Assembly: GCA_034620365.1 (NCBI GenBank) | Contig: JAQGEQ010000054.1 | Span: 124,001-188,000 of the forward strand | Direction: 5' to 3' | Length of the DNA: 64,000 nucleotides | DNA from: Pegea sp. RAD2-039 | Lineage: Eukaryota; Chordata; Thaliacea; Salpida; Salpidae | Shown: positions 1,758 through 28,743 of the stretch, one piece after another | Layout of the letters: each line of letters begins with the position of its first letter | How positions within the stretch are numbered: position 1 is the stretch's first letter | Notes under the pieces: generated by a model | What the model was told of the DNA's origin: nothing | Databases searched by the model: none | The model's input: the letters and a program-made list of their open reading frames with translations, nothing else | Made by a program: the position numbers and the translations under genes

Positions 1758-4700
1758 ATGAATGAAAGATTCTCATCGACAAGGAGTTCAATCAGATCTA
1801 GATCTGAAGTCATCTCTAGGACATCAGGTATAAAATTGTCTTAAAATAAAATTTCTTATTTAATTAATTTCTTCAATAAGAGAATCATAACAAGCCAGTT
1901 TCTCCATTTTTTCCACTTATTTTGTACTTTTGATTCATAATTTATAACTTAATTATGTTAAACTGAGGTACTTATGTCCTTTTCATCATATTTCTCTTCA
2001 TAATACTTGGGGTTTGTTTGCTATTAGAGCTGTAGAAGTTATCATCTGTAGCCATGCGTTGAAGGAAATAAATAAATATAAAAATTCAAATTATTTATTT
2101 AAATATTTCATTTGTTATTCAATATCAAAATATCTTGTGTTTTCTCTAATTTGTAAATTTAACAAGAAAATATAAAAACAAGATTAAAAAATAAACAAAT
2201 TGTTTGTTTCATTTCTTTTTGTCAAATAATTGATGAATCTTAGTTGTAAATTTGAAGTCAAAATACTTTCGGTTGAAAATATCAAACTGTGACACCTAAA
2301 ACTTGGAAACTTCAAAATTAATTTCTTCTAATTATTAAACAAACTTTTCTGCTATACTGACTTTGTTTGTTTTAATAAATCTCAAAAAACTACAAACTGA
2401 ATCTATTGTCACAATCACAAATTCCAAGTTTATTTGGAAACATCATTTTATGCTTGTACAACATACAAATTTACAAAATGAAATAAGTTTAAATATTTAT
2501 CTACAGATCGTAAAAAGACAGCAGCTGAGAGGTTAGAAGCAGATAAAATGAAATATGTAAAAAGCGAAAAAGTCCGGCAAAAGCGAATAACATCAGGTGA
2601 GGTCCTTTGAGTTTTGGCATGTCCAGCATGCCACAAGTTGTCTATTTAAGCTTTTCTAACAAGTGTTTGCTGATGAGGAGTCACTTTCTCATTATATTTC
2701 ATTTTATCACCTGCATGTCATCCTAAACTTCGTTTCTAAACTCTTGTAAAAGAAGAAACCTCAAAAAAGTTGATGAAAAAAACAGAAATTTTATCTTCAG
2801 AGTATTTCAATGATAGCACTGGCACACATTCCGTGTCTACGTCATCAACTGCGTCACCAACCAACGCCGATAACAGTGAAGTAACCATGACAACCTCAAA
2901 ACTCAAACCAGTGGCCTACAAGCTGCCCCTAAAAGCTTTCAAAGATGACCAGCTGGTCGCCAAGAGTGGTCGGAAGCTGTACAACTGTGTCAAGGATGGT
3001 TTAAAGCCAATTGGACCTCACGAATGTAGCCCCAGACTGTCCAGGACAACTGCACGTGGCCCTGGACACCCTCGGTCGTTTAGTCTTGGTCCAAACGCCC
3101 GAGTTTTGACTCCATCGAAACCCAAAGTGGTCAGCAAGATGTCCAGTCCGACCAGCCAGCTAAAACAGATCAGGGACGGTCTCCGGAAGGTCCGGGAAGA
3201 CCACAGGTTTGGCGTGAAGGCGGCAGAAGGTCAAAGGTCGCGCGAAGACTTTGTGTGCAGTGGAGCGAATCGAGACACGTTGATGACATCATCGAAACGA
3301 GAGATGAAAGTAGAAAGATCGAAGCCATTCGCGCTGATTGAGAATAAACTGAATCGAAAGATGATGACGTCATCGAATCACGAAGCTCTTCAAAGTAATC
3401 AATTTGCATGTTCACTTTGACCTTTGACCTCTCGCATGACCTCATTTACATATTTGTCGAATCGATTTTTTCAGCTTCGAATTTTTTGAAAGAAATTTTT
3501 GAATTTTTTTTTTCAGTTCAAGAAAACGAAATCAAATCGTCGCGAAGACATCTAAAGTCAGTTTGTAGTTCGACCCCAAAACGCGAAAGATCTGCAAAAG
3601 ATGAGGATTATCAGATGATGAAGTCATCACAAGTACGAAAGAGTTGATCTCAGATCATCTTCTTCATCATTCAATGTTGAAACTCCTCTGTTTCATCCAC
3701 TTGAAGTTTCACAAACTTCTCGTTTAGATCAACTATTTGATGATCAACTGAATTAACTCCAAAAAAATTCTATAAAAATTCTTCAAGTTAAAAAAAGTAA
3801 TTTTTTTCAGCTTTCAAAGCCAACTAGTTATCAAAAACATCGAACAACCAGCAACAAATCGTCCAATGAGAATCAAGCAATTTTCTCCCGTCCTAAATTC
3901 TTATCTTACAAGAATCAAACTGCAACAGAAACCCGGAAAACCTCCACCAAAGGTAACCTCTTAAATGGTGTCGGCCTCTTTTGTAAACAACCACTTTGTC
4001 TATGTTGAAACAAAATGAGAGTTTTTTTTTGGTTTTATTTTGTTTATTGTCAAAGAAAGTTTGTAACAAAATCGTCTCGATTGAAAAATCGATTTTTAGC
4101 GTCTGATGGTTTCGAAATTCAATTTAAATTGACAAAAAGTTTGAAGATTTCTAACAAAAGACAAGCTTCAACAAGTCCCAGTAGCTTCTTTCAAACGATC
4201 TTTCAAAAGATCTCAACTTCTTTGATGTTTGCAGTAATTCAATTTGTTTTTTGATTTGTTTGTTGGATCATCTAACCGACTCTCATCTTGTCACTAGCTT
4301 CCAATTCTCCAAATATTCCAACTCACCGAACATATGTCCCGCATCTATCCACCCATCTGTTCATCTCTCTTCCAAATCTGTTCGAAAGTTGATGTCTTCA
4401 GCAGATGTCAGTTTTTCAGTGAAGTTTTTGTTGGATGACGTCACTGATGACGTATCTCAAATCTTCTTTTTGATTCTGCATCTCTAAGGCCCTGATCTTC
4501 ATCAGATGACGTCACTGATGACATATCTCTAATCTTCTTTTTGATCTTCAGCAGCGAACTGTCCGGGATCTCGAAAGAGTATCAGCGAGCGCTTGGAAGA
4601 AATACTCACGCCACTAGAGGACGCTAAAACCGACGCGATGGAGATGCCTCCTCCGCGAGTCCCATGTGATCCTCCCCTGGAGACTCCTACAGAGACTCTC

Positions 4701-6014
4701 ATCGCTTCCAATTTTTCAACTGCGAAAAGCTCTTCAGACTCAACTGAAGATCAGAAGATGTCCACTGATGTCCGGAGTTCATCTAAGCTGACTCCTTTGC
4801 TCCGGAAGGAGGTTGCTCCCTCCAGGTGAGTCCCTCGCTTCTGATTGGTTGTTGGGAGAACCGCGATTCGCGAATCCTTCTGTTTTGTTGAGATTTCAAC
4901 TTGTGATTTTTAAATTCGTTTTTGTTTCCAGCCTCAATTCGTTTTCTGGATGTCATCATGAGAACATCAGATCTTCTAGAGATCATTTAGAGGATCACAA
5001 GATGATGAATACTCTTAAATCACAAAATACTTCAAGTTCAGCTTCAAATGATGTCAACAAACCTCTAATAGGTTTCCTGTTTGTTAATTTCATCTCCAAA
5101 ACTTCCCGACAATCAGATAATCCATCAAACAAATCCGATATCTTGTGACGATCAAAAAGTGATTTAAATACCCAAGTATCTCTCAAAAACTCTATCTGAC
5201 CCTTTTCTTAATCCTCGCCACTTGTTATTGTTTCAACATCCACAGAAAGGTCTTCATCTAATCTGTCCTCATCATCTTTCCATTTATCTCAATCTTTTTT
5301 TGAATGTTTTGAAAAACTTCACGCTTGAGTGACGACTTCTTTGCTCATAACAAACTATTTACATCAATATTAAACCTTCTGATCTTCATCTTCTTTTACA
5401 GCGATGACCGCTTCGGATTTAAAACCAAAAAAAAATAAAAGAAATCCTCCCGATTGCCACCTAGTGTCCAGAAACCGATCTTCAGCCACTCCATCATCAT
5501 CTTATCAATCTATAGGTCATCCAAAGGATCCAACATCTTCTAATCTTCATCTACAAAACCTCCGGAGTCATCATCATCACCAACGATCCTTAGACAGGTC
5601 CCAACATCTTCTAATTTGCATATTTACGTGACAACAAGTCTTGCAGATCGGAGAGTAGCAGATTAAACAACTTTTTTGCAACTATGGGAGGATTCCTTCC
5701 ATCTCAATCCTCCAATGAAAACCTCAGCTTCGTTGCTAACGACTTCAGCGATTCGAGCTTCTCCTACGCCGGTTGGTTGCTATGGTGTTTGAGCGAAGCT
5801 GCTTGAACTGATGACGTCACTTCCAGGTGCTTCTGAGTACGTTCGTGATGAAGACGAAGTGGAAGTGAAAGAAGTTTACACGACACCTAGTGTCAGTATT
5901 ATTGAGAAGAGAGCGAGAATCATGAGATGGATTGTGTCTTGTCGGAGTTATTTCGACCAAACTTCATCTTCTTCAATTCCTTACTATCTTCCTCCCAAAG
6001 AATCTAGCGTCTGA
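1758..6014 (+). CDS. FAM110: FAM110-like protein (multi-exon)
   Basis: Cytoskeleton/centrosome-associated family in vertebrates; its molecular activity is poorly known. Exons read as 1758-1827, 2507-2596, 2786-3394, 3517-3632, 3811-3952, 4100-4226, about 4298-4406, about 4553-4825, 4932-5071, 5402-5597, 5647-5771 and 5827-6014, nearly all joining in phase with GT-AG borders. Exon 2 carries the N-terminal family signature: it encodes AERLEADKMKYVKSEKVRQK, close to the vertebrate (S)AVERLEADKAKYVKSQ. The last exon encodes SIIEKRARIMRWIVSCR, matching the C-terminal SVIERNARIIKWLYTCKK block. Between them lies a long, low-complexity, Ser/Thr/Lys-rich middle. The start is the first ATG of exon 1 (MNERFSSTR). 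The junction between the exons near 4.3 and 4.55 kb does not join in phase as written, so one border there is wrong or an exon is missed. Several exons and introns contain TGACGTCA palindromes. Confidence 0.85.
1855..2075 (+). repeat. Dispersed repeat, family C copy 1 (FAM110 intron)
   Basis: The segment about 1891-2003, from AAGCCAGTTTCTCCATTTT to CATCATATTTCTCTTCATA, recurs almost unchanged at 23362-23491. Its right part, with GTTTGTTTGC, AGAGCTG and TGTAGCCATG followed by an AATAAATAAA-type tail, recurs near 22095-22190. This is a short interspersed element-like family; no coding capacity and no clear tRNA head are visible. Confidence 0.6.
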
Positions 6015-8377
6015 AGATCTTTCAATTCGTTGATGATGTCACCGCCCTGCCTTTCTGTGATGTGGACAGCTTCCTACTGATGACGTCATCGTTTTCTTCC
6101 TCACGTGACTGCCGTGCGCTCTCTTATGACGTCATCAGCTGCTTCCGATCTTTTTTCTGTTTTTTCTATTTTGATTATTCATCATTTTCTTCATTTTTAG
6201 CGATGACGTCACGACGGCTATGACGTCATTAAGCGCGATCATGTGGCCTGGTGAGTTTTTTTCTGTGAAACTAATTTTCTTGATTCCTTGTTATGTGATG
6301 ACGTCATCGTTCGTGATCAACTTTTGTTGACGATTTTAAGATACTTAAAAAATGTTTGAAGAATAAATTAAAAGTTGGAAATTGATTTCAGAAAAACAGT
6401 TTTTCAAAAAAGAAATTTTTGAAATTTAAATTTTTAAATAATATTTTTGTAGATTGAAAAAATTTAAATAAAATAAAAAAGAAATTTTTGAAGATTAATT
6501 AATTTCAGCTGTTTCGAACTCTCTTGTGAATTAAGAAGTTTATTTAATTAATTTTCAATTTTCGTCCAGAAATTTTCTTACAAAAAGTTTTCAACAGAAA
6601 ATTTATTGTTAAAAAAAAAACTTCAAATCAAATTTTTAGATAAAAAGATTTTTGATCATTTATTCAAATGGATTTTCTTTTAATTAAATTATCATTAAAA
6701 CTCATTTTAATATTTTAAAATCAATTTTGAAGACAAATTATTTGTAATTCGACAAAATAATTTAAACTCAAATTGTTTATAAAGTTATGAAAACAAAAAA
6801 TTTAATTTTTTTTAACTTAGGTGTTATTAAATAGTTGTTTGTTAATGAGTTAATATTAAAAACATTTTATATAAAATTTAATCTTATTTATCAAGTTTTA
6901 GTTTCTAACGTATGTTAGGAGAACTTGCTGAAACTTCAAGCTTTAATTTTATAAAAGTAAAATTTATAACATCTTATTGCAACCTAAATAATTCAATTTT
7001 TTCAATCAGTAAAACCATGGTTTGTTCAAAGTCTGACACTATTTGGATTTTGTCAATTTGTCAAATTTATTTAAAAAAGTCTTGTTTTTGACGCTGAAAG
7101 CTTTTAGCTTGCAGTTTTTTTACTGCAACTCAATTAGTACTTATGGTTATTTTATTCTATTTAATGTATAAATAGTACTCACATTAAATTACGTTTTATC
7201 GATATATAGTTTTGAAATTTTGTTACAAAATAAAATTTGGAAAGTATTATAATATATTTTTAAATTCAGTTTAATATTTAGCCATTTTTGTTTCAATGAA
7301 GACATTTCAAACTATTAATAATTCTTCATTCTTCTAAATTCAATAAAATTTCAGTTTAACAAATTTTTGTTGATTTATAAAAATTGTTCAGCAAATTATA
7401 TAAATAGTTTCAAGTTTTCTTTTTTAAAGCTGGTTATCCATTTTTTAATATATTTTAATGTTTGTTGTATATAATAATTTCTTGGTTTTTACGAAACTAA
7501 ATTTTACATTTAATTTTTTCTAACAAAAGTTTTTGGATTATTTGATCTAAACAGATTATTCCATTTGAAACTTAGTTAATATATCAAAATGATCTCTGTT
7601 AAGATAAGTCTGATAATAAAAAGTCAACTGATATTAGATAATAGAGGTTTTATTACAAAGAAATTTTTTTAAGCAATGAAGTTTTAAGTTTGATAAAACT
7701 TCTTTGTTCAATTTTAAAAGTATCCGCGAGATGGCGCAATGAGCGGTCACTTATAAATTAGTTTCATTTTATAAAAGGTTTTGAAACTGAAGACAGATGA
7801 TATTTAATTATATTCAATATCTGTTGCATTTAAGAATCATTTTTGAGATGTTATTTTAAATAAACACTCACAAATTTGTATTTCCAATTTATTAAAAAAA
7901 AAATTTTGGCCAACTATGACGTCTGTTATTCAAAACCATTTTTATTAAAATTTTCTAAACTTCAAATTCTTCGACTTTAGAGATAAATTCAAATTAATTT
8001 CTAAAATCTAAAACTTGAATTTTTTTCTATAAATTTATTGAGAAAGTGAGATAAAATAAATTATTGAGATTATTTAGAAAATTATAAATTATTGAAATAA
8101 ATTTAAAAACTCAGAAGAGATTTTTGAAGTGAAAATTAATAATTTCCTCATAGAGATTTTAAATCGACAAATAAATAAAATTATTGAGATGGAAATAAAT
8201 CCAAGTGACATCAAATTCTTTTTTCGATCTCACATTTCTCTCAATTTAAACATTTTTCATCTTTTATTAAAAACCTCGAAAAAATATTTTTTTTCAGCTT
8301 AATAATTTTCTAAATTCTTATTTTAAGATTTAAAATTTTTATTTTGAAAATCTTTACAATTTATAAAACAAAAACAA
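6015..8377. other. Intergenic region between convergent FAM110 and GFM1 genes
   Basis: The first 300 bases carry five TGACGTCA palindromes (about 6082, 6126, 6204, 6220 and 6297); the rest is AT-rich. A motif AGATGGCGCAATGAGC near 7730 resembles AGATGGCGTAATGGAGC near 13141. I see no gene. Confidence 0.5.
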
Positions 8378-11300
8378 TTATTTCTTTTTATTTTTACTTT
8401 TCTTCTGATTTTTAACTTCATTCATCTCATCTTGAAACTGAGTAATCAGCATCTGCTGCGTTTCATCTCGTGCTGAATCATATCTCGCGTATTCCATCGA
8501 ATATTCGCCCTTGCCCTGAAACAATCACGCATCAGGCTTAACTAGCAGATAAAAGAGCCGCTTGCACCGACCTCTGTACTAGATCTTAATATTGAAGCGA
8601 ATCCGAACATATCATTTAGAGGAATCTCGAAGACTACCGACGAGTAGTCATCCGTGACTTCCTGTTCTTGAACATCACCTCTCAGCTGCCCCACTAAGAT
8701 CAGAACATCTGATAAGAACTCGGTTGGGGCGGAAACTTCTACTTTCATTACTGGCTCCAATAATTCAACAGAAGATGACTCCATCACTAACATCGCGATT
8801 CAATGATGACGCCATTAGAGCGGTGATGACGTCATCGCTTACCCTGTTGCATCGCGCCTTCTGCCGCCATTCGGAAGGAATATTCAGAAGAATCAACCAA
8901 ATGAGAAGCACCCCCAGTTACGACGACGCGAAGCCCCGAAAGCGGGAAGCCAGCTAAGGTCCCCTTCTTCACAGACTCTTCAAGGAATCCCTACAAAAAA
9001 TGACGTCATCAAATATCGCGAACAATCGAATATCGATTTAATAAAAAAATTTGAAAATTTGAAGTCAAAACAGTAAAAAGCCAAAATAATCACCGTTTTA
9101 ATGGCCTTCATGTAAATTTGAGGGACATCAGCCCCAACTGTTTTATCCACAAATGTATTCGTCGTGTTTTGATCAGCTGGGAGAGGCTGTAAACAGAAAG
9201 AGATGTCGCGCGCGGTTGATGACGTCATTTGCTGATCGAAAATTGTCAAAAGAAATTAATAACATTTGAAATTTTGACATCAGATTATGTTGTGGGTTTT
9301 ATCGTGATGTTTAGATGGAAAATCTTACGCGTTCATGACGTCACTGACGCGTTAGAAGTGATTTATGAGATCAACTATTTGATCCATCAATGACGTCATC
9401 ATCAATAGTTTGTACTGACCTCTACATAACCTGACAAACGACCATATTGTCCGTGTCCACCTGTTTGTCGCTTGTGGGTGTAATCGAAGCTGAAATTGAA
9501 AAAAGCCAAATTAATTTTGAAACTTCGAATTGAAGTCAAGAGATGAAGATTGAATCAAGAGATGAAGATTAAATCAAAAGATGAAGATTGAATCAAGAGA
9601 TGAAGATTGAAGAGTCTTCCAAATGTTTTGATGATAGCTTCCTGTCAGAACTTCTCGCCTCAGTTGCTAAGCAACAACTTCGCAGTTAATTCACATCTCG
9701 AAAATTTTGCAACTGACAGAAAGAAACAAACAAGAAGAAAAAGATCTCACTGACATTATTATGACGTCACCAGCGCTCGCTGTCACCAAACGCGATTTTC
9801 AGATTCTCTCGCGTCGAGAAGAAAGTGAAGAATATAAAAGCGGAAGTGCGCAAAGTCACTTTTCACTTCAGATAAGACGTCGCGCGTTTTTACAGATTTT
9901 CTTAAAATGAGATTGATTAATTGGATGTTGATGGTCGTCTTCTGCTACGTCACTGATGACGTCATCGGCTGGTCGAGGGCCACTAACATCAACAACAATC
10001 GCTTTGAATCTAGTGACGTCATCGGTAAGAGCATATTTTGTAGTTTTAACGATTTAATGACGTGATGATGACGTCACAGGACGCGATGTCGCGAGTTGTG
10101 TATCACGTGATCGCTTTATCTCACTTCTCGCTCATCTTCAACTTTGCAACTTCAATCGTCAACAACAAGTCGATTACGTCATCACTAGTGACGTCATCAG
10201 CAGTTGCACGGTGAGCGGTCACGTGGTTAGCAGTTTGAGTTCATTCTTGTTTCTGGTTTGTCCACAGGACAACTATTGTTTGGTTTCCATGGAAACCGCA
10301 CCAACCAGATGCGACTTATCTTCACTATCACCTCTGTGTGACGTCATCAGTAAGGTGAGTGACCTCATCAACATCAATTTGCGCGTCCATGACGTCTTTG
10401 TTCAGCAGGAAAAGCGCAAATGTCATTTCAAAATTGACTTGGACAATGACGTCATTAGCGAAGCGCCTCTTAAATGTGACGTCATCAATGACGTCACTGA
10501 GGGACGATTGGCGCAACTTCTAGCATTACTTATGAACCGACCAACCAAACGCTGGAGCCAAAACCATGGTCACGTGCATCCTTTCTGACCTTTCACCCCA
10601 ACCTTCACCCTCTATTTCACTTTTACGAGTTTTGTCATTGATGTTGTGATCTTCGTATCTTGATCTAATTGAGATCTTGATCTGATTGAGATTTTGATCT
10701 AACTAAGATCTGATCTTCATGTGATCCTGATCTAACTGAGATCTGATCTTCTTTATTAATCTTCTGTTGTTTGTAACTTTTAATTAAAATTTTAAAAAAT
10801 TGTGCAATGATGTCGTTGAAGTAAAGATCAGATGATGAAGATTAGATCAGATGAAGATGTATAAAAACTCACTTAATTCTGTTAGTGACAGTTTCACGAA
10901 AAGCCACTTTCGGTTTTCCCAGTTCCACTTCTAATCCATACTCATTTAACATCCGTTGAGCATAAATCTCTAGATGTAGCTCTCCCATTCCAGAGACGAT
11001 AGTCTGCAGAGGAAGACTGATGCAGATATCGCGCGTTGATGAAGTCACAAACCTCTTTGCTATCTTCATCATAAGAAACTTGAAAAGTTGGGTCTTCCCG
11101 TGAAAACCTGTTGAGAGCTTTACTGACGAGTCCAGAATAATCTTTACCGTGAAATTTTAAAGACATTGAAACAACCGGATTCGGAACAAATATTGATTCC
11201 TGTTCGACAACCACGTGACAGTTTTTCTGGCTGCTGAATGGTTGTTAATTACCATGTTAATTTTCATCTTGGGTTTTGTGACAAAGGTGTCACCAGTCGA

Positions 11301-13996
11301 ACATTCGACGCCGAAAATTGCACAAATATCTCCCGCAGAAGCTTCCTGAATTTCCTGATCAACAAATCCACTTTCAATTTGAATGACGTCATAAGTCACG
11401 TGGCTAGTTAAAGTAATGATGACGTCACCTCCATATTGTTCGCATGCATCCGAATCAATCGCGACAGCTTCGTCTTCTTCCCATTACGATTGTTAATGAT
11501 GAAGTCGCCTTTGGCAAATCGTCCCTGGTACACTCGTAAATAAGTCAGCTGTCCAAATTTGCTTTGCTGTCAATCAAACTAATCAACTGTTGTCGGTTGT
11601 CATGGCAACCAACTTCGAGTTTGAACGCTAAAGCGATGGCAGGATTTGTATCAGAGCGCTCAGGATTCAATTTAATCTTTGTTCCTAAAGACTCGTCACT
11701 GCCAACATATTATGACGTCATCGGAACGCTTGTAAGCGGCCACCAGATGGCGCAAACCTTTCATCGAGATGTTGACGGTCAAACGCAAAGTTGTCCACCT
11801 CACTAGGATCGGGCAGGTAGCTGTTGATGGCGTCCAGGACCAGTTGAACACCTTTGTTCTTAAGGGCGGTACCTGTGAGGACCGGAGTAAAGGTCCGGGC
11901 CACAACTGTTCGTCTTATAGCCGCCTGTAACCAGTAGTTTGTGGTCTAGTTGATGATGTAGTGGTCACTTACCTTTAATTGGTCCACAGTAGGTGTCTCG
12001 TCACAGAGAAAGATCTCAGCAAGTTCGTCGTCAACATTACTCACACATTCTGTAAATCAAAAGATTTTTAGAAGACGCGATTATGCAAATTAGCATCGCG
12101 GCAGATAAAGAGTTTATGGGCGTCAAAAGAATCTGTCAAAAGATGAAGATAAAAGCTGGATTCCTAGCTTCAAGATCACTAAAAGAGAAATGGATTCACA
12201 TCTGTACATGTTTGAAGAAGAAGGCTCGTGACAGTCCCTGAAGTCAACCACTTTCGGGTCGCTCATTGTTGACAAAGAGAGGGAAGACAAGAGATGATGT
12301 GGACAAGCCCTGGGACAACCATCACCAATCACTGTCGCTTTCTTGGGTAACAGGACAAGAGGTAATGTGGACCGACAACCTGGGACAACCATCACCAATC
12401 ACTGTCCTTTCCTTGGGTACCAGGACAAGATATGATGTGGACCAACGCCCTGGGACAACCATCACCAATCACTGTCCTTTCCTTGGGTACCAGGACAAAA
12501 GGTGATGTGGACCGACAACCTGGGACAACCATCACCAATCACTGTCCTTTCCTTGGGTACCAGGACAAAAGGTGATGTGGACCGACAACCTGGGACAACC
12601 ATCACCAATCACTGTCCTTTCCTTGGGTAGCAAGACAAGAGATGATGTGGACCGACGCCCTGGGACAACCATCACCAATCACTGTCGTTTTCTTGAGTAC
12701 CAGGACAGAAGGTGATGTGGACCGACAACCTGGGACAACCATCACCAATCACTGTCCTTTCCTTGAGTACCAGGACAAGATATGATGTGGACCAACGCCC
12801 TGGGACAACCATCACCAATCACTGTCCTTTCCTTGGGTACCAGGACAAGAGGTGATGCGGACCGACGCCCTGGGACAACCATCACCAATCACTGTCGTTT
12901 TCTTGAGTACCAGGACAGAAGGTGATGTGGACCGATAACCTGGGACAACCATCACCAATCACTGTCCTTTCATTGGGTACCAAGGCACTATTAACAAAAG
13001 GTCAACATCTGCACGAAAACCCCACGAATGAAAAGAGCGTTTAAAGTTTAAGGGTCTTTTTCAAAGATGTACTGAGACCTCTAAAAAATTTTGGACTTTA
13101 AAGTCATCACCTCAATCATTATTTATTATAATCTTACGCTAGATGGCGTAATGGAGCATTTAATACATTTCAAACTAACCAATCAGCTCAATTCTTTTTT
13201 CTTCAACTAACTGCTTCATATCTCTTGGTATTGGTTTATATGTGACAACATCACCAGAATTTCCTTCAAAATAAACAGCCTTCTTCTCAATTATATCAAC
13301 CATTCCTTCACATTTGCTTTCCAACCCGATAGGAATGTTGATGAAGGCAGCATTTCGATGTAGTTTCGATCTAATAACAACAATTCGTATCTACATCACT
13401 TAATCTTTACAAGTACCTGATCTGAGTGAGACATCTGTAAGGATTGGCAGCTAATCGGTCAACTTTATTGATGAAGATGATGCTTGGGACTTTATATCTA
13501 TTAATCTGACGATTCACTGTCAGCGTTTGACTTTGAACCGCGCTATTTGCACAAATCACTAAAACCTGTTAAAACCATTTTATATAAACGACCATTTTCG
13601 CCACAAAACTACTCACAGCGCCATCTAGTACTCGTAACGCGCGTTCGACTTCTACTGTGAAGTCCACGTGACCAGGAGTGTCGATAACATTGATATTATG
13701 ATCTTTCCATTGGACATAAGTGGCAGCAGATTGAATAGTGATTCCGCGTTCGCGTTCTAAATCCATCGAATCCATGGTGGCTCCAACTTTATCTTTACCT
13801 TTAACCTATATCGAAATGAAGATGGGAACTCGAAACGAATCCGCATCACCTCATGCATCTCAGAGATTCTTCCACTATAATAGAGAAGTCTCTCGGTTAC
13901 GGTGGTTTTCCCGGAATCGATATGCGCCGCTATCCCGATATTTCTCATCTTCTTTAAAGACTCACACTCCGTCGAGTACATGAAGTATGACGTCAT
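8378..13996 (-). CDS. GFM1: Elongation factor G, mitochondrial (EF-G1)
   Basis: Translational GTPase that drives ribosome translocation in mitochondria. Exons (minus strand, 5' to 3'): 13850-13996, 13617-13805, 13417-13565, 13180-13370, 11973-12049, 11758-11924, 11614-11697, 11429-11566, 11253-11354, 11053-11199, 10873-11003, 9420-9489, 9094-9186, 8843-8990, 8572-8786 and 8378-8515. Visible motifs are the P-loop [22 protein letters not shown] (switch region), DTPGHVDFT (G3) and NKVDR (G4; most relatives have NKLDR). Downstream are [14 protein letters not shown]-like domain II residues, the domain III motif [24 protein letters not shown] and the C-terminal [15 protein letters not shown]. The protein covers the full family length. 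The annotated ATG lies inside a TGACGTCA palindrome, and no mitochondrial targeting sequence precedes the G domain, so a short 5' exon is probably missed. The lysine-rich end KKSKNKKK precedes the stop. Confidence 0.93.
9541..9616. repeat. Short tandem repeat, 19-bp unit, 4 copies
   Basis: The unit AGATGAAGATTGAATCAAG repeats at about 9541, 9560, 9579 and 9598 with few changes. It lies in a GFM1 intron, upstream of the nested gene on the plus strand. Confidence 0.8.
9833..9840 (+). promoter_or_regulatory. Probable TATA box of the nested secreted-protein gene
   Basis: The string ATATAAAAGC lies about 70 bases before the ATG at 9907. The spacing would put transcription start near 9865 and leave a 5' leader of about 40 bases. 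This is an inference from motif and distance only. Confidence 0.5.
9907..10588 (+). CDS. Small cysteine-rich secreted protein nested in a GFM1 intron
   Basis: Unrecognised family. Four exons, 9907-10024, 10080-10210, 10268-10354 and 10406-10588, join in phase through three introns of 55, 57 and 51 bases with GTAAGA, GTGAGC and GTGAGT donors. The product is about 172 residues. The N-terminus [15 protein letters not shown] is a plausible signal peptide. The rest carries eight cysteines spaced roughly C-x15-C-x19-C-x4-C-x10-C-x8-C, then two more about 18 apart, enough for four disulfides. The last intron is a multiple of three, so retention would also keep the frame open. The tripeptide DVI occurs six times because TGACGTCAT(C/T) palindromes sit in the exons in one frame. 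The gene lies wholly inside the GFM1 intron between 9490 and 10872, on the opposite strand. Function unknown; a secreted ligand, toxin-like or matrix protein are all possible. Confidence 0.6.
10640..10750. repeat. Degenerate GATCT-rich tandem repeat
   Basis: Imperfect repeats of TGATCTAATTGAGATCT and close variants follow the stop codon of the nested gene. They may lie in its 3' untranslated region. No function is implied. Confidence 0.5.
12285..12985. repeat. Minisatellite, 70-bp unit, about 10 copies
   Basis: The anchor ATCACCAATC starts at 12321, 12391, 12461, 12531, 12601, 12671, 12741, 12811, 12881 and 12951, exactly 70 bases apart each time. Units carry GATGTGGACC, CTGGGACAACC and CCTTGGGTACCAGGACA. 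Variant blocks (CCAACGCCC against CGACAACC; TCGTTTTC against TCCTTTCC) recur 350 and 210 bases apart, indicating unequal exchange of multi-unit blocks. The array lies in the GFM1 intron between 12050 and 13179. Confidence 0.95.
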
Positions 13997-14226
13997 CTTC
14001 TGTGGTATGACGTCATTTGTCGAATTTTGTTGATTAAGTCATTAGAGCTTACTGAAAAATCTTTTATTTTAAGTCCACATGATTGGTTAGAGACTGATTT
14101 GAAAATAATTTTTCGTAAAATACCGAACGACATCACTAAATAAATAATCAACTAATAATAAATATAACTAAAAACTTCTGTAAAAGAACAAATAAATTTT
14201 CACGAATCAACAAATAAATTGTTCAT

Positions 14227-15012: not shown

Positions 15013-16563
15013 TTAAGTTCTATTTCTTTTAAAATTATGAGCAAATACTTCCGTAAAACCCAAGTTACCAAAAAAAGTGTTAAAAAAATGTAAAATTTCA
15101 ACAATACAATCATTATGTCTATTATCAACAGGTTCTTTCCATTCTTCCATCAAAATGTTGTCACCTAACATTTGATTAACAAACAAACACAGCTGATAAA
15201 CACTTTCCAAAGCTTTTGGTGTATCAAAATCATTCTTGAAGGCAAAATCAACTTCAGCTTTACACGTTGAAAGCTGAAGCTGAACTTTCTCTGGCTCTAT
15301 TCTGCCAGACATATTTCCTTGTATATATTGTTGACATCTATAAGCAAATTCAGCTAATTTATTTAATCGTGTTTGAGCTTGAGTCAGAGTTTTTTGATGA
15401 TAAAAGATATCATCATGCCAAATAGTTTCAATACACATTAAACGAATTAAATCAGCAGAATGAGATTGAAGAAATGATTGAATAGTGACGACATTTCCTA
15501 ATGACTTAGACATCTTTCCACCTCTCCTTGGTTGAACTAAGTGACCTGTATGAAGGAAATAGTTACACCACTGATCAGTTTCATGGAAACTATGACATTG
15601 AAAGATTTCACATTCATGATGAGGGAACTTTAAGTCAACAGCACCAGTATGAACATCAAGTTTGTCGTTAAAGTATAAAGAAGATAAAGTAGAACACTCA
15701 ATATGCCAGCCTGGACGGCCATTACCCCATGGCGCTTCCCAATAAAGCTCGCCAGGCTTTACAGCCTTCCACAGAGAGAAATCTTTTGGGCTTTTTTTAT
15801 TAGCTGAAGTATCTGATTGTTCCCAGACTTCATATGAAGGAGCTAAATAAGCAGAATTTGTTGGTAAGCAGTGATGATCAAACCAAACATTTCCATCAAC
15901 AGTTGTATAAGCATGGCCTTTTTTAATCAATTTGTTAATAAATGAAATAATTTCTGGTAAGACATCATCAACACATGCAAATACATTTGGTGATAAGATA
16001 TTTAAACTGTTTAAATCAGTGAAAAACTCTTGTTCATACTTCCTAATAAGGTCATTAAATGAAACTTCAATTAAATTACTTCGTGTAATTATTTTGTCAT
16101 CAACATTAGTAACACCCATCACCATAAATATATCAAATTCATAAAACTTCATCAAAATCCTTCTAATTACATCAGATCTAATAAAAGAACTAGCATGTCC
16201 AATGTGACAACTATCATAGACTGTTGGTCCACATGAATACCAGCTAATCCTACTTGGGTCACTAACTACCAATGGAACTAACTTTTTATCCTTTTTTTTA
16301 CCAAGGCAACGATAACTGTTTGAAACCTTAAAACCTGTATCAAATCCATTTGGTGTCTTCCATTGATGAAGATTGATTGGTTCATTTTTTTGTGAATTAA
16401 TGTTTTTATGTTGAATAAATGATGAAAAAGATCTTTGAAATAAGAATTCAAAACTTGATTTCCATAAATTTATGGACTGATTTGAAGAAATATATTTTGA
16501 GAAAGTTTGAGAAAACATTATATTAACAAATATTAAAACAGCAAATACCCTACACGAAAACAA
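15013..16563 (-). CDS. CARS2: Cysteinyl-tRNA synthetase, mitochondrial (intronless)
   Basis: Class I aminoacyl-tRNA synthetase that charges mitochondrial tRNA-Cys. The 516-aa frame shows the Cys-specific SCGPTVYDSCHIGHAS (HIGH signature) near residue 110 and KMSKSLGNVV (KMSKS signature) near residue 350. It also has the conserved GRPGWHIECS and HHECEIFQ, which bear zinc-binding Cys and His. The first about 60 residues are rich in Ser, Phe, Lys and Arg, as expected for a mitochondrial presequence. The first ATG is at 16563; an internal ATG at 16518 (MFSQTFSKYISS) is an equally good start. Length fits the mitochondrial form. Unlike its neighbours the gene has no intron, which suggests either intron loss through a retrocopy or an intron-poor ancestral gene. 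Confidence 0.93.
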   Translation of the reverse strand: MFSCRVFAVLIFVNIMFSQTFSKYISSNQSINLWKSSFEFLFQRSFSSFIQHKNINSQKNEPINLHQWKTPNGFDTGFKVSNSYRCLGKKKDKKLVPLVVSDPSRISWYSCGPTVYDSCHIGHASSFIRSDVIRRILMKFYEFDIFMVMGVTNVDDKIITRSNLIEVSFNDLIRKYEQEFFTDLNSLNILSPNVFACVDDVLPEIISFINKLIKKGHAYTTVDGNVWFDHHCLPTNSAYLAPSYEVWEQSDTSANKKSPKDFSLWKAVKPGELYWEAPWGNGRPGWHIECSTLSSLYFNDKLDVHTGAVDLKFPHHECEIFQCHSFHETDQWCNYFLHTGHLVQPRRGGKMSKSLGNVVTIQSFLQSHSADLIRLMCIETIWHDDIFYHQKTLTQAQTRLNKLAEFAYRCQQYIQGNMSGRIEPEKVQLQLSTCKAEVDFAFKNDFDTPKALESVYQLCLFVNQMLGDNILMEEWKEPVDNRHNDCIVEILHFFNTFFGNLGFTEVFAHNFKRNRT

Positions 16564-16719
16564 ATGAATTATAAATCAGTGTATGGCATTATAAAAACAG
16601 TTTTACAAATTATAACAAATTTCTAAAGGCAACAAAAGTTAAATAAAAGTAAAATTTAGAGTTTACAAAATAAAAACTTTTGAAATCTATCAAAACAAAA
16701 ATTAACTCAGTAACTTTGT

Positions 16720-27892: not shown

Positions 27893-28743
27893 TTAATTTG
27901 CTTCGTTCAAATTGTCAAGATATTCAGGATAGAAATCATTTAGAGTAAAATCAGATGATGTTCTTTGACGAATGACCTCTTCTTGAGTGGCATCTTCAAA
28001 ATTTTCTTCAGAGGATCTAAACGATAATTAGAAGCTGCTGGTAATGGACGAAGAGATATATAGAGGTAGGAAAATGTTTGTTTTCTTTACTACTTTAGTT
28101 TTTAGGAGACAAAAATCAATTTAATTCAGGATGTAAGTCGTAAACTGGAATTTTTTAAAAGCTAGAATTTGTGGGTGAAATTGTTTTAGAATCTTTTATA
28201 GACTGTAAAAGATGACCAGAAGAAGCTTTTAGATCTTCTTAATTCAATTCTAAGAGTAATTTTAAGCAAACAAAATACTTGACAACTCATTGTTATAGTT
28301 TAGAAACAGGAAAATTCCAAAATTACCTTTTGGACATTAAGTTCCACAACAGCTCCTTCATGGCGTTCCTGTTTCGAATCTTTGAGTTTAGATGAGTCAA
28401 GTAAGATTGACTGTATCGCTTCTGTGGTCCAGCATTGATAAGTTGTTCATAAATTTCATTTTCATCATCCAATAGCTGCCGAATTTCTCTGTTTTAAATC
28501 AGACAAATTCGTTTGTAGTTTATTTTCACAACTATGCAGACTGGTTGTGTTTAATAACATATTTTTAAACAATTTTTATTTATTAATTAACCTTTTAATA
28601 ATGTATTTATATTAAATTCTTTTAAATCTCAAAACTAACTTTACTATTTCTTCAAGGCTTACACTTTCGCTAATGACACCCTTTTTAAAAATGGTTGAAG
28701 CAAGAATCAACAAAATCAGCAAAGAACTACCAGATGAGAACAT
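27893..28743 (-). CDS. Secreted peptide-hormone (neuropeptide-like) precursor
   Basis: Three exons, 28640-28743, 28327-28488 and 27893-28016, join in phase (104, 162 and 124 bases; 129 residues plus stop) with GTTAGT and GTAATT donors and CAG or TAG acceptors. The N-terminus MFSSGSSLLILLILASTIF is a clear signal peptide. An acidic spacer (LLDDENEIYEQLINAGPQ) is followed by KR. A 28-residue basic, amphipathic segment then begins YSQSYLTHLN and ends ELLWNLMS. It is followed by a second KR and an acidic C-terminal tail ending DFYPEYLDNLNEAN. Dibasic sites on both sides predict release of one peptide by prohormone convertases. Size and helix pattern resemble ligands of class B G-protein-coupled receptors: PACAP/GHRH end in a similar AVKKYLAAVLGKR-type stretch, and PTH shares the S-x3-L-x-H-x3-K spacing. 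The similarity is too weak for a name. No C-terminal glycine for amidation is present. Confidence 0.7.

Follow-up and report, generated by a model that had tools for sequence, protein, structure and literature searches.

A gene on the minus strand at 27893-28743 of the window (the whole 64,000-nucleotide stretch of DNA that was analysed) probably encodes a tunicate prepropeptide carrying a single, highly diverged class B1 GPCR ligand of the secretin/glucagon/PACAP-PTH superfamily, a reading that includes membership of the PTH branch. The predicted hormone is a 28-residue peptide (the 28-mer) flanked by two KR sites. Its sequence favours a place nearer to the secretin/glucagon/PACAP/GHRH branch, with PTH as the more distant one.

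Gene structure and precursor

The coding sequence comprises 390 nt (129 codons and TAA) and is interrupted by two phase-2 GT-AG introns. The features of the locus are as follows.

28640..28743, minus strand: exon 1, containing the ATG, a hydrophobic leader and the beginning of the acidic spacer; donor GTTAGT
28489..28639, minus strand: intron 1, phase 2, GTTAGT...ACAG, GC 0.20
28327..28488, minus strand: exon 2, containing the spacer, KR, the entire 28-mer, K and two bases of an R codon; GC 0.38
28416..28421, minus strand: upstream dibasic site KR, from the sequence
28332..28415, minus strand: coding stretch for the predicted mature 28-mer, YSQSYLTHLNSKIRNRNAMKELLWNLMS, placed by sequence, with similarity from alignment and a helix from AlphaFold
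28017..28326, minus strand: intron 2, phase 2, GTAATT...TTTAG, interrupting the codon for R in the downstream KR
27893..28016, minus strand: exon 3, containing the last base of KR, the acidic tail and the stop TAA
27708..27713, minus strand: AATAAA, 179 bases beyond the stop codon, possibly a poly(A) signal, from the motif only

The initial annotation had described three exons joining in exact phase into a prepropeptide, and both points were confirmed: the boundaries, GT-AG introns and phases are as described, and the order of leader, acidic spacer, KR, 28-mer, KR and acidic tail can be read from the sequence. The precursor of 129 aa begins with MFSSGSSLLILLILASTIFKKG and continues through the acidic spacer, QKR, the 28-mer YSQSYLTHLNSKIRNRNAMKELLWNLMS and KR to the acidic tail. 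The C-terminus of the 28-mer is LMS, followed directly by KR, with no Gly preceding KR.

The donor of intron 1, GTTAGT, is weak-looking, and the exon-1 boundary is not unique: the donors GTAAGC (28662) and GTAAAG (28644), combined with an acceptor before 28475, stay open, with alternative in-frame ends of exon 1 at 28645 and 28663. The leader and the KR-flanked 28-mer are retained in all listed models using the donor after 28327, and the 28-mer is thus independent of the choice of exon-1 donor. Searches of the 105.7-Mb, 387-contig assembly of the same genome at E 0.001 and E 10 revealed no further copy of the gene.

Two further observations concern the ends of the gene. The end of the motif TTTTTAG (28763-28757, minus strand) is 13 bases upstream of the start codon, and a trans-splice acceptor could sit there; trans-splicing occurs in tunicates. 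In the acidic tail, the part following RQR (27893-27961) reads TSSDFTLNDFYPEYLDNLNEAN and bears a faint likeness to an N-terminal secretin-family motif, which may be due to chance.

Chance expectation of the precursor shape

A purpose-written scan, whose thresholds were set when the gene had already been seen, looked for a KR-(20-45)-KR core preceded by a leader and assembled through GT-AG joins. Applied to both strands of the window, it returned one model, namely the 28-mer precursor. It returned 2 models from 30 simulated 64-kb windows, and 2 models from 97 kb of real sequence of the same genome (ten other loci, picked for 7TM receptor matches). Given these counts, the shape of the precursor is by itself suggestive, not proof.

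The locus could in principle result from chance in-phase splicing of three ORF pieces in AT-rich noncoding DNA, or be a decayed gene. The weak donor of intron 1, the two similar models in the 97 kb of other loci and a codon usage that is not frame-specific (9.2 bits in frame vs 9.4 and 2.1 out of frame, after training on 1043 window codons) are compatible with such an origin. However, only 2 models were obtained from the 30 simulated windows, the GC content is higher in exons 1, 2 and 3 (0.34, 0.38 and 0.32) than in the introns (0.20 and 0.28), and an independent similarity to hormones was found at the one relevant 28-mer. The GC content of the 1-kb flanks is 0.22 and 0.29, and that of the window is 28.5%. 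An origin by chance or decay is considered improbable, and the locus is likely a genuine prepropeptide gene.

Likeness of the 28-mer to class B1 hormones

The 28-mer was compared without gaps with a panel of 15 hormone sequences, five of them confirmed in PDB alignments, using 20,000 shuffles. For VIP, PACAP, GHRH, secretin and glucagon, the best register was found to be residue 1 on residue 1, with z values of 4.0, 3.8, 5.3, 4.0 and 2.8 and identities of 6/28, 7/28, 7/28, 7/27 and 7/28, respectively. The score summed over 8 peptides was 147, as compared with −167 ± 67 in the shuffles, and was equalled by 0/20,000; the largest z across the 15-peptide panel was matched by 0.16% of shuffles. GLP-1, GLP-2 and GIP gave z values of 1.7-2.8, in other registers, and TIP39 gave −0.5. 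For CRF, calcitonin, CGRP and PDH, the best-register z was at most 0.51 (p 0.30 or more). The score of 147 was not matched by any 28-mer of 120 cysteinyl-tRNA synthetases, all from one protein family (65,594 windows; best 116), or by any of the 75,710 other 28-mers in six-frame ORFs from loci of the same genome (best 124).

In a stricter test, the register was fixed and the comparison was confined to four hormones confirmed in PDB alignments (VIP, PACAP, GHRH and glucagon, with residues 1-27 only for PACAP). The sum gave a z of 5.17, with 0/50,000 shuffles as high; when polar positions exchanged residues only among themselves, and apolar positions likewise, 4/50,000 were as high. Both halves of the 28-mer contribute to this score (z 3.8 and 3.4). 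The known distant relative PTH gave a z of 3.0 here as PTH(2-29), and of −2.1 as PTH(1-28), which is shifted from the register by one residue. The values for other peptides were 1.7 and 0.0 for CRF pieces, 1.9 for orexin B, 0.8 and −0.3 for NPY pieces, 0.5 for ghrelin, −1.2 for ANP and −1.6 for galanin.

The similarity to class B1 hormones in the hormone register is thus beyond chance. The proposal of the initial annotation that the peptide belongs, in divergent form, to the superfamily of class B GPCR ligands, itself still an inference from sequence, gains support from the register-0 fit to five hormones and from matching receptor groups in the genome. The locus also agrees with the secretin/glucagon/PACAP family in its general format, a peptide within the range of about 27-44 aa that, judging from the sequence, would be cut out of a precursor with a signal peptide at dibasic sites. 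The family rule of H1 (Y1 in GHRH and GIP) and F6, as given in PMC2880984, is followed at one position: Y1 is present and residue 6 is Leu.

The initial annotation had also pointed to PACAP-like and PTH-like spacing. The PACAP part holds, in exact register (z 3.8); the PTH part is weaker, as PTH and PTHrP individually have a z of 1.5 when the register is free, and jointly one of 3.0 at offset 1. In a reading nested within the preferred one, the peptide is a ligand of the tunicate PTH branch that acts on PTH-type receptors and is orthologous to the peptides described as PTH-like by Mirabeau and Joly (2013). According to the review PMC4354418, that study identified such peptides both in tunicates and in amphioxi; the S-x3-L-x-H-x3-K spacing is common to the 28-mer and PTH at offset 1, and PTH-type receptors are clustered on contig C258 of the genome. 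Nevertheless, the match to GHRH/VIP/PACAP is clearly better and in exact register, and PF01279 (PTH) was not matched, although in one of the runs the controls were silent too. Assignment to the PTH branch is therefore regarded as possible but doubtful.

Helix and amphipathicity

In an AlphaFold single-sequence model of exon 2 alone, a helix extends across hormone residues 3-27 (mean pLDDT 82.8, blocks 77-90). This predicted helix fits the C-terminal alpha-helix of the superfamily but discriminates little, and is weak evidence. The description of the peptide as amphipathic in the initial annotation was not supported: the hydrophobic moment is low, being equalled or exceeded by 2838/3000 shuffles.

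Profile and database searches

A profile comparison with the secretin- and PTH-type families had been suggested as a check, and its outcome was negative, since profile HMMs were not significant for the 28-mer. In Pfam, the precursor had no match above cut-off, only five unrelated sub-threshold matches, and the 28-mer was not matched by PF00123 (Hormone_2). A local HMMER profile of 8 hormones gave the 28-mer 4.1 bits, and decoy ORFs scored higher; the top decoy scores are biased upward because the decoy set includes loci L034-L039, which were selected by PF00123. The sole match to PF00123 above cut-off in the genome (C1:1329064-1329132, plus strand, 23.1 bits, E 0.0128) was set aside as probably due to chance, as the matched stretch crosses two stop codons.

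A search of the PDB gave no relative. A search of 5.8 billion proteins with the precursor returned 33 candidates, all of them weaker than E 10, and a search with exon 2 returned zero candidates; these protein searches reach only proteins sharing exact 5-residue words. In the literature surveyed at the level of abstract beginnings, no entry names the 28-mer, and PTH, parathyroid, secretin, PACAP and calcitonin are unmentioned in the accessible portions of the Ciona peptide reports PMC8936170 and PMC12441681.

These searches bear on another reading, namely that the locus, though a genuine neuropeptide gene, belongs to an unrelated family specific to tunicates and that its likeness to class B hormones is due to convergence of helical peptides. 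The absence of profile matches and of F6 is in line with it, and many Ciona-specific peptides have been reported (PMC8936170). However, the similarity beats all but 4 of 50,000 shuffles keeping the polar/apolar pattern, and it is locked to the register set by the cleavage sites; convergence is therefore thought unlikely. Because the 28-mer has no Pfam match above cut-off and lacks F6, the gene is not filed as PACAP, GHRH, glucagon or PTH, and the preferred description is that of a highly diverged member of the superfamily.

Comparison with known peptide systems

With GHRH, VIP, PACAP and secretin, the 28-mer shares the 28-residue register, T7, a basic residue at position 12, L23, the hydrophobic C-terminal pattern and the KR flanks; its Y1 is that of GHRH and its S2 that of VIP, PACAP and secretin. 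The hormone lies within one exon, as is also described for GHRH and secretin (PMC2880984). Unlike these hormones, the 28-mer has L6 instead of F6, only 6-7 identities and no amidation signal, and its precursor is without a second dibasic-flanked hormone. Glucagon likewise lacks an amidation signal and shares SQ at positions 2-3, T7, SK at 11-12 and LM at 26-27 (7/28), whereas it derives from a multi-hormone precursor and differs from the 28-mer at Y1 and L6.

PTH and PTHrP share the spacing at offset 1 and a single hormone per precursor, and PTH-type receptors are present in the genome. The score is weaker, LTH stands in the place of LMH or MHD, and the 28-mer is shorter, being closed by the second KR. 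In protostomes, iPTH is the ligand for those insect receptors that are orthologues of the PTH group. Insect iPTH is amidated and has <12% identity to human PTH peptides (PMC7224569), and the lophotrochozoan QSGamides are its proposed orthologues (PMC8557429). These iPTH-type peptides (PXXXamide, QSGamide) resemble the 28-mer in being single KR-flanked peptides. Their GXX amidation and cleavage signal, described as strictly conserved (PMC7224569), is absent from the 28-mer, which lacks both Gly and a Pro at −4.

The PACAP/GCG-like peptides of amphioxus, compared by description only, are similar in belonging to an invertebrate chordate and in having very low identity to the vertebrate hormones; that gene encodes three peptides of 32-33 aa (PMC7251081), in contrast to the one 28-mer here. 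As far as the accessible text of PMC2880984 and PMC7251081 goes, a secretin-family ligand was not found in tunicates in either work, and the Chelyosoma PACAP cDNAs are treated there as doubtful or unconfirmed.

Class B1 receptors in the genome

PF00002 has 49 matches genome-wide, and the hormone-receptor domain has 7, five of them above cut-off. Two receptors were identified by search as PTH-type, at C258:1766-1771 kb (PTH1R 135.7 bits vs secretin receptor 95.7) and at C258:1779-1782 kb (PTH2R 103.4 vs VIPR1 79.2). A third, at C258:1738-1744 kb, has a PTH-type look by eye. These three genes (two by search, one by eye) lie within about 45 kb, at C258:1738-1782 kb. The match of a further receptor at C21:2340 kb is split, with TM2-4 scoring 79.0 for PTH1R and 77.3 for GLP-1R, and TM5-7 scoring 98.6 for the glucagon receptor, 95.6 for GLP-1R and 77.3 for PTH1R. 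On these scores the C21 receptor was called glucagon-type. This set parallels that of Ciona, for which 2 PTHR and 3 GLPR genes have been reported (PMC2396169), with three PTH-type genes here vs two there.

Other features of the window and genome

A gene for mitochondrial cysteinyl-tRNA synthetase (CARS2) is located at 15016-16575 of the window. Among the 120 matches listed, the best is a metagenome protein with 55% identity, and the nearest named ones are from Ciona savignyi (49%), Ciona intestinalis (48%) and Styela (40%). In a tree built with 22 of these 120 matches, the protein groups among the tunicates (100/100 support), next to two sequences from environmental collections (P0001 and P0002). 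The genome is accordingly assigned to a tunicate, and the origin of these two neighbours makes a planktonic one the suspected host. A rotifer host was rejected, as the CARS2 of Brachionus lies outside this clade, and a Xenoturbella host was rejected because the Xenoturbella genome has 43% GC vs 28.5% in the window. COX1 had no match in the assembly.

The window contains 31 copies of the palindrome TGACGTCA vs 0.40 expected, with 28/31 copies within 3365-14008. In the 97 kb of ten other loci of the same genome, it occurs 77 times vs 0.72 expected; 6/10 of these loci are without any, and the copies are carried by L043, L047, L048 and L049. Genome-wide, TGATGACGTCATCA has 1972 copies vs 0 for the reversed control. 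The flanks of the 108 palindrome sites are unrelated beyond about 14 bases, and inspection by eye suggests that some copies are situated inside reading frames. In TGACGTCA, an animal genome appears to contain a highly iterated palindrome.

Proposed mode of action and implications

By analogy with other prohormones, the leader would direct the precursor into the secretory pathway, prohormone convertases would cut at both KR sites, and a carboxypeptidase would trim the basic residues. The released product would then be a free-acid 28-mer, expected to be non-amidated because no Gly precedes KR. Class B1 structures suggest that the helical C-terminal half would bind the receptor ectodomain and that the N-terminus, with Y1 and T7, would enter the transmembrane core, with Gs/cAMP signalling to follow. 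Of the candidate receptors, the glucagon-type one on C21 is ranked as most likely, ahead of the PTH-type ones on C258.

The presence of GHRH/VIP/glucagon residues in register 0 and of PTH residues in register 1 also allows a more speculative reading of low probability, in which the predicted hormone descends from an ancestral chordate class B1 hormone predating the functional split between PTH and glucagon/PACAP, and may serve both receptor types.

Members of the secretin family have hitherto been hard to find in tunicates. A single-hormone precursor such as the one predicted here would open the question of the ligand to a simple receptor assay, and the precursor provides a query for locating the gene in other tunicates.
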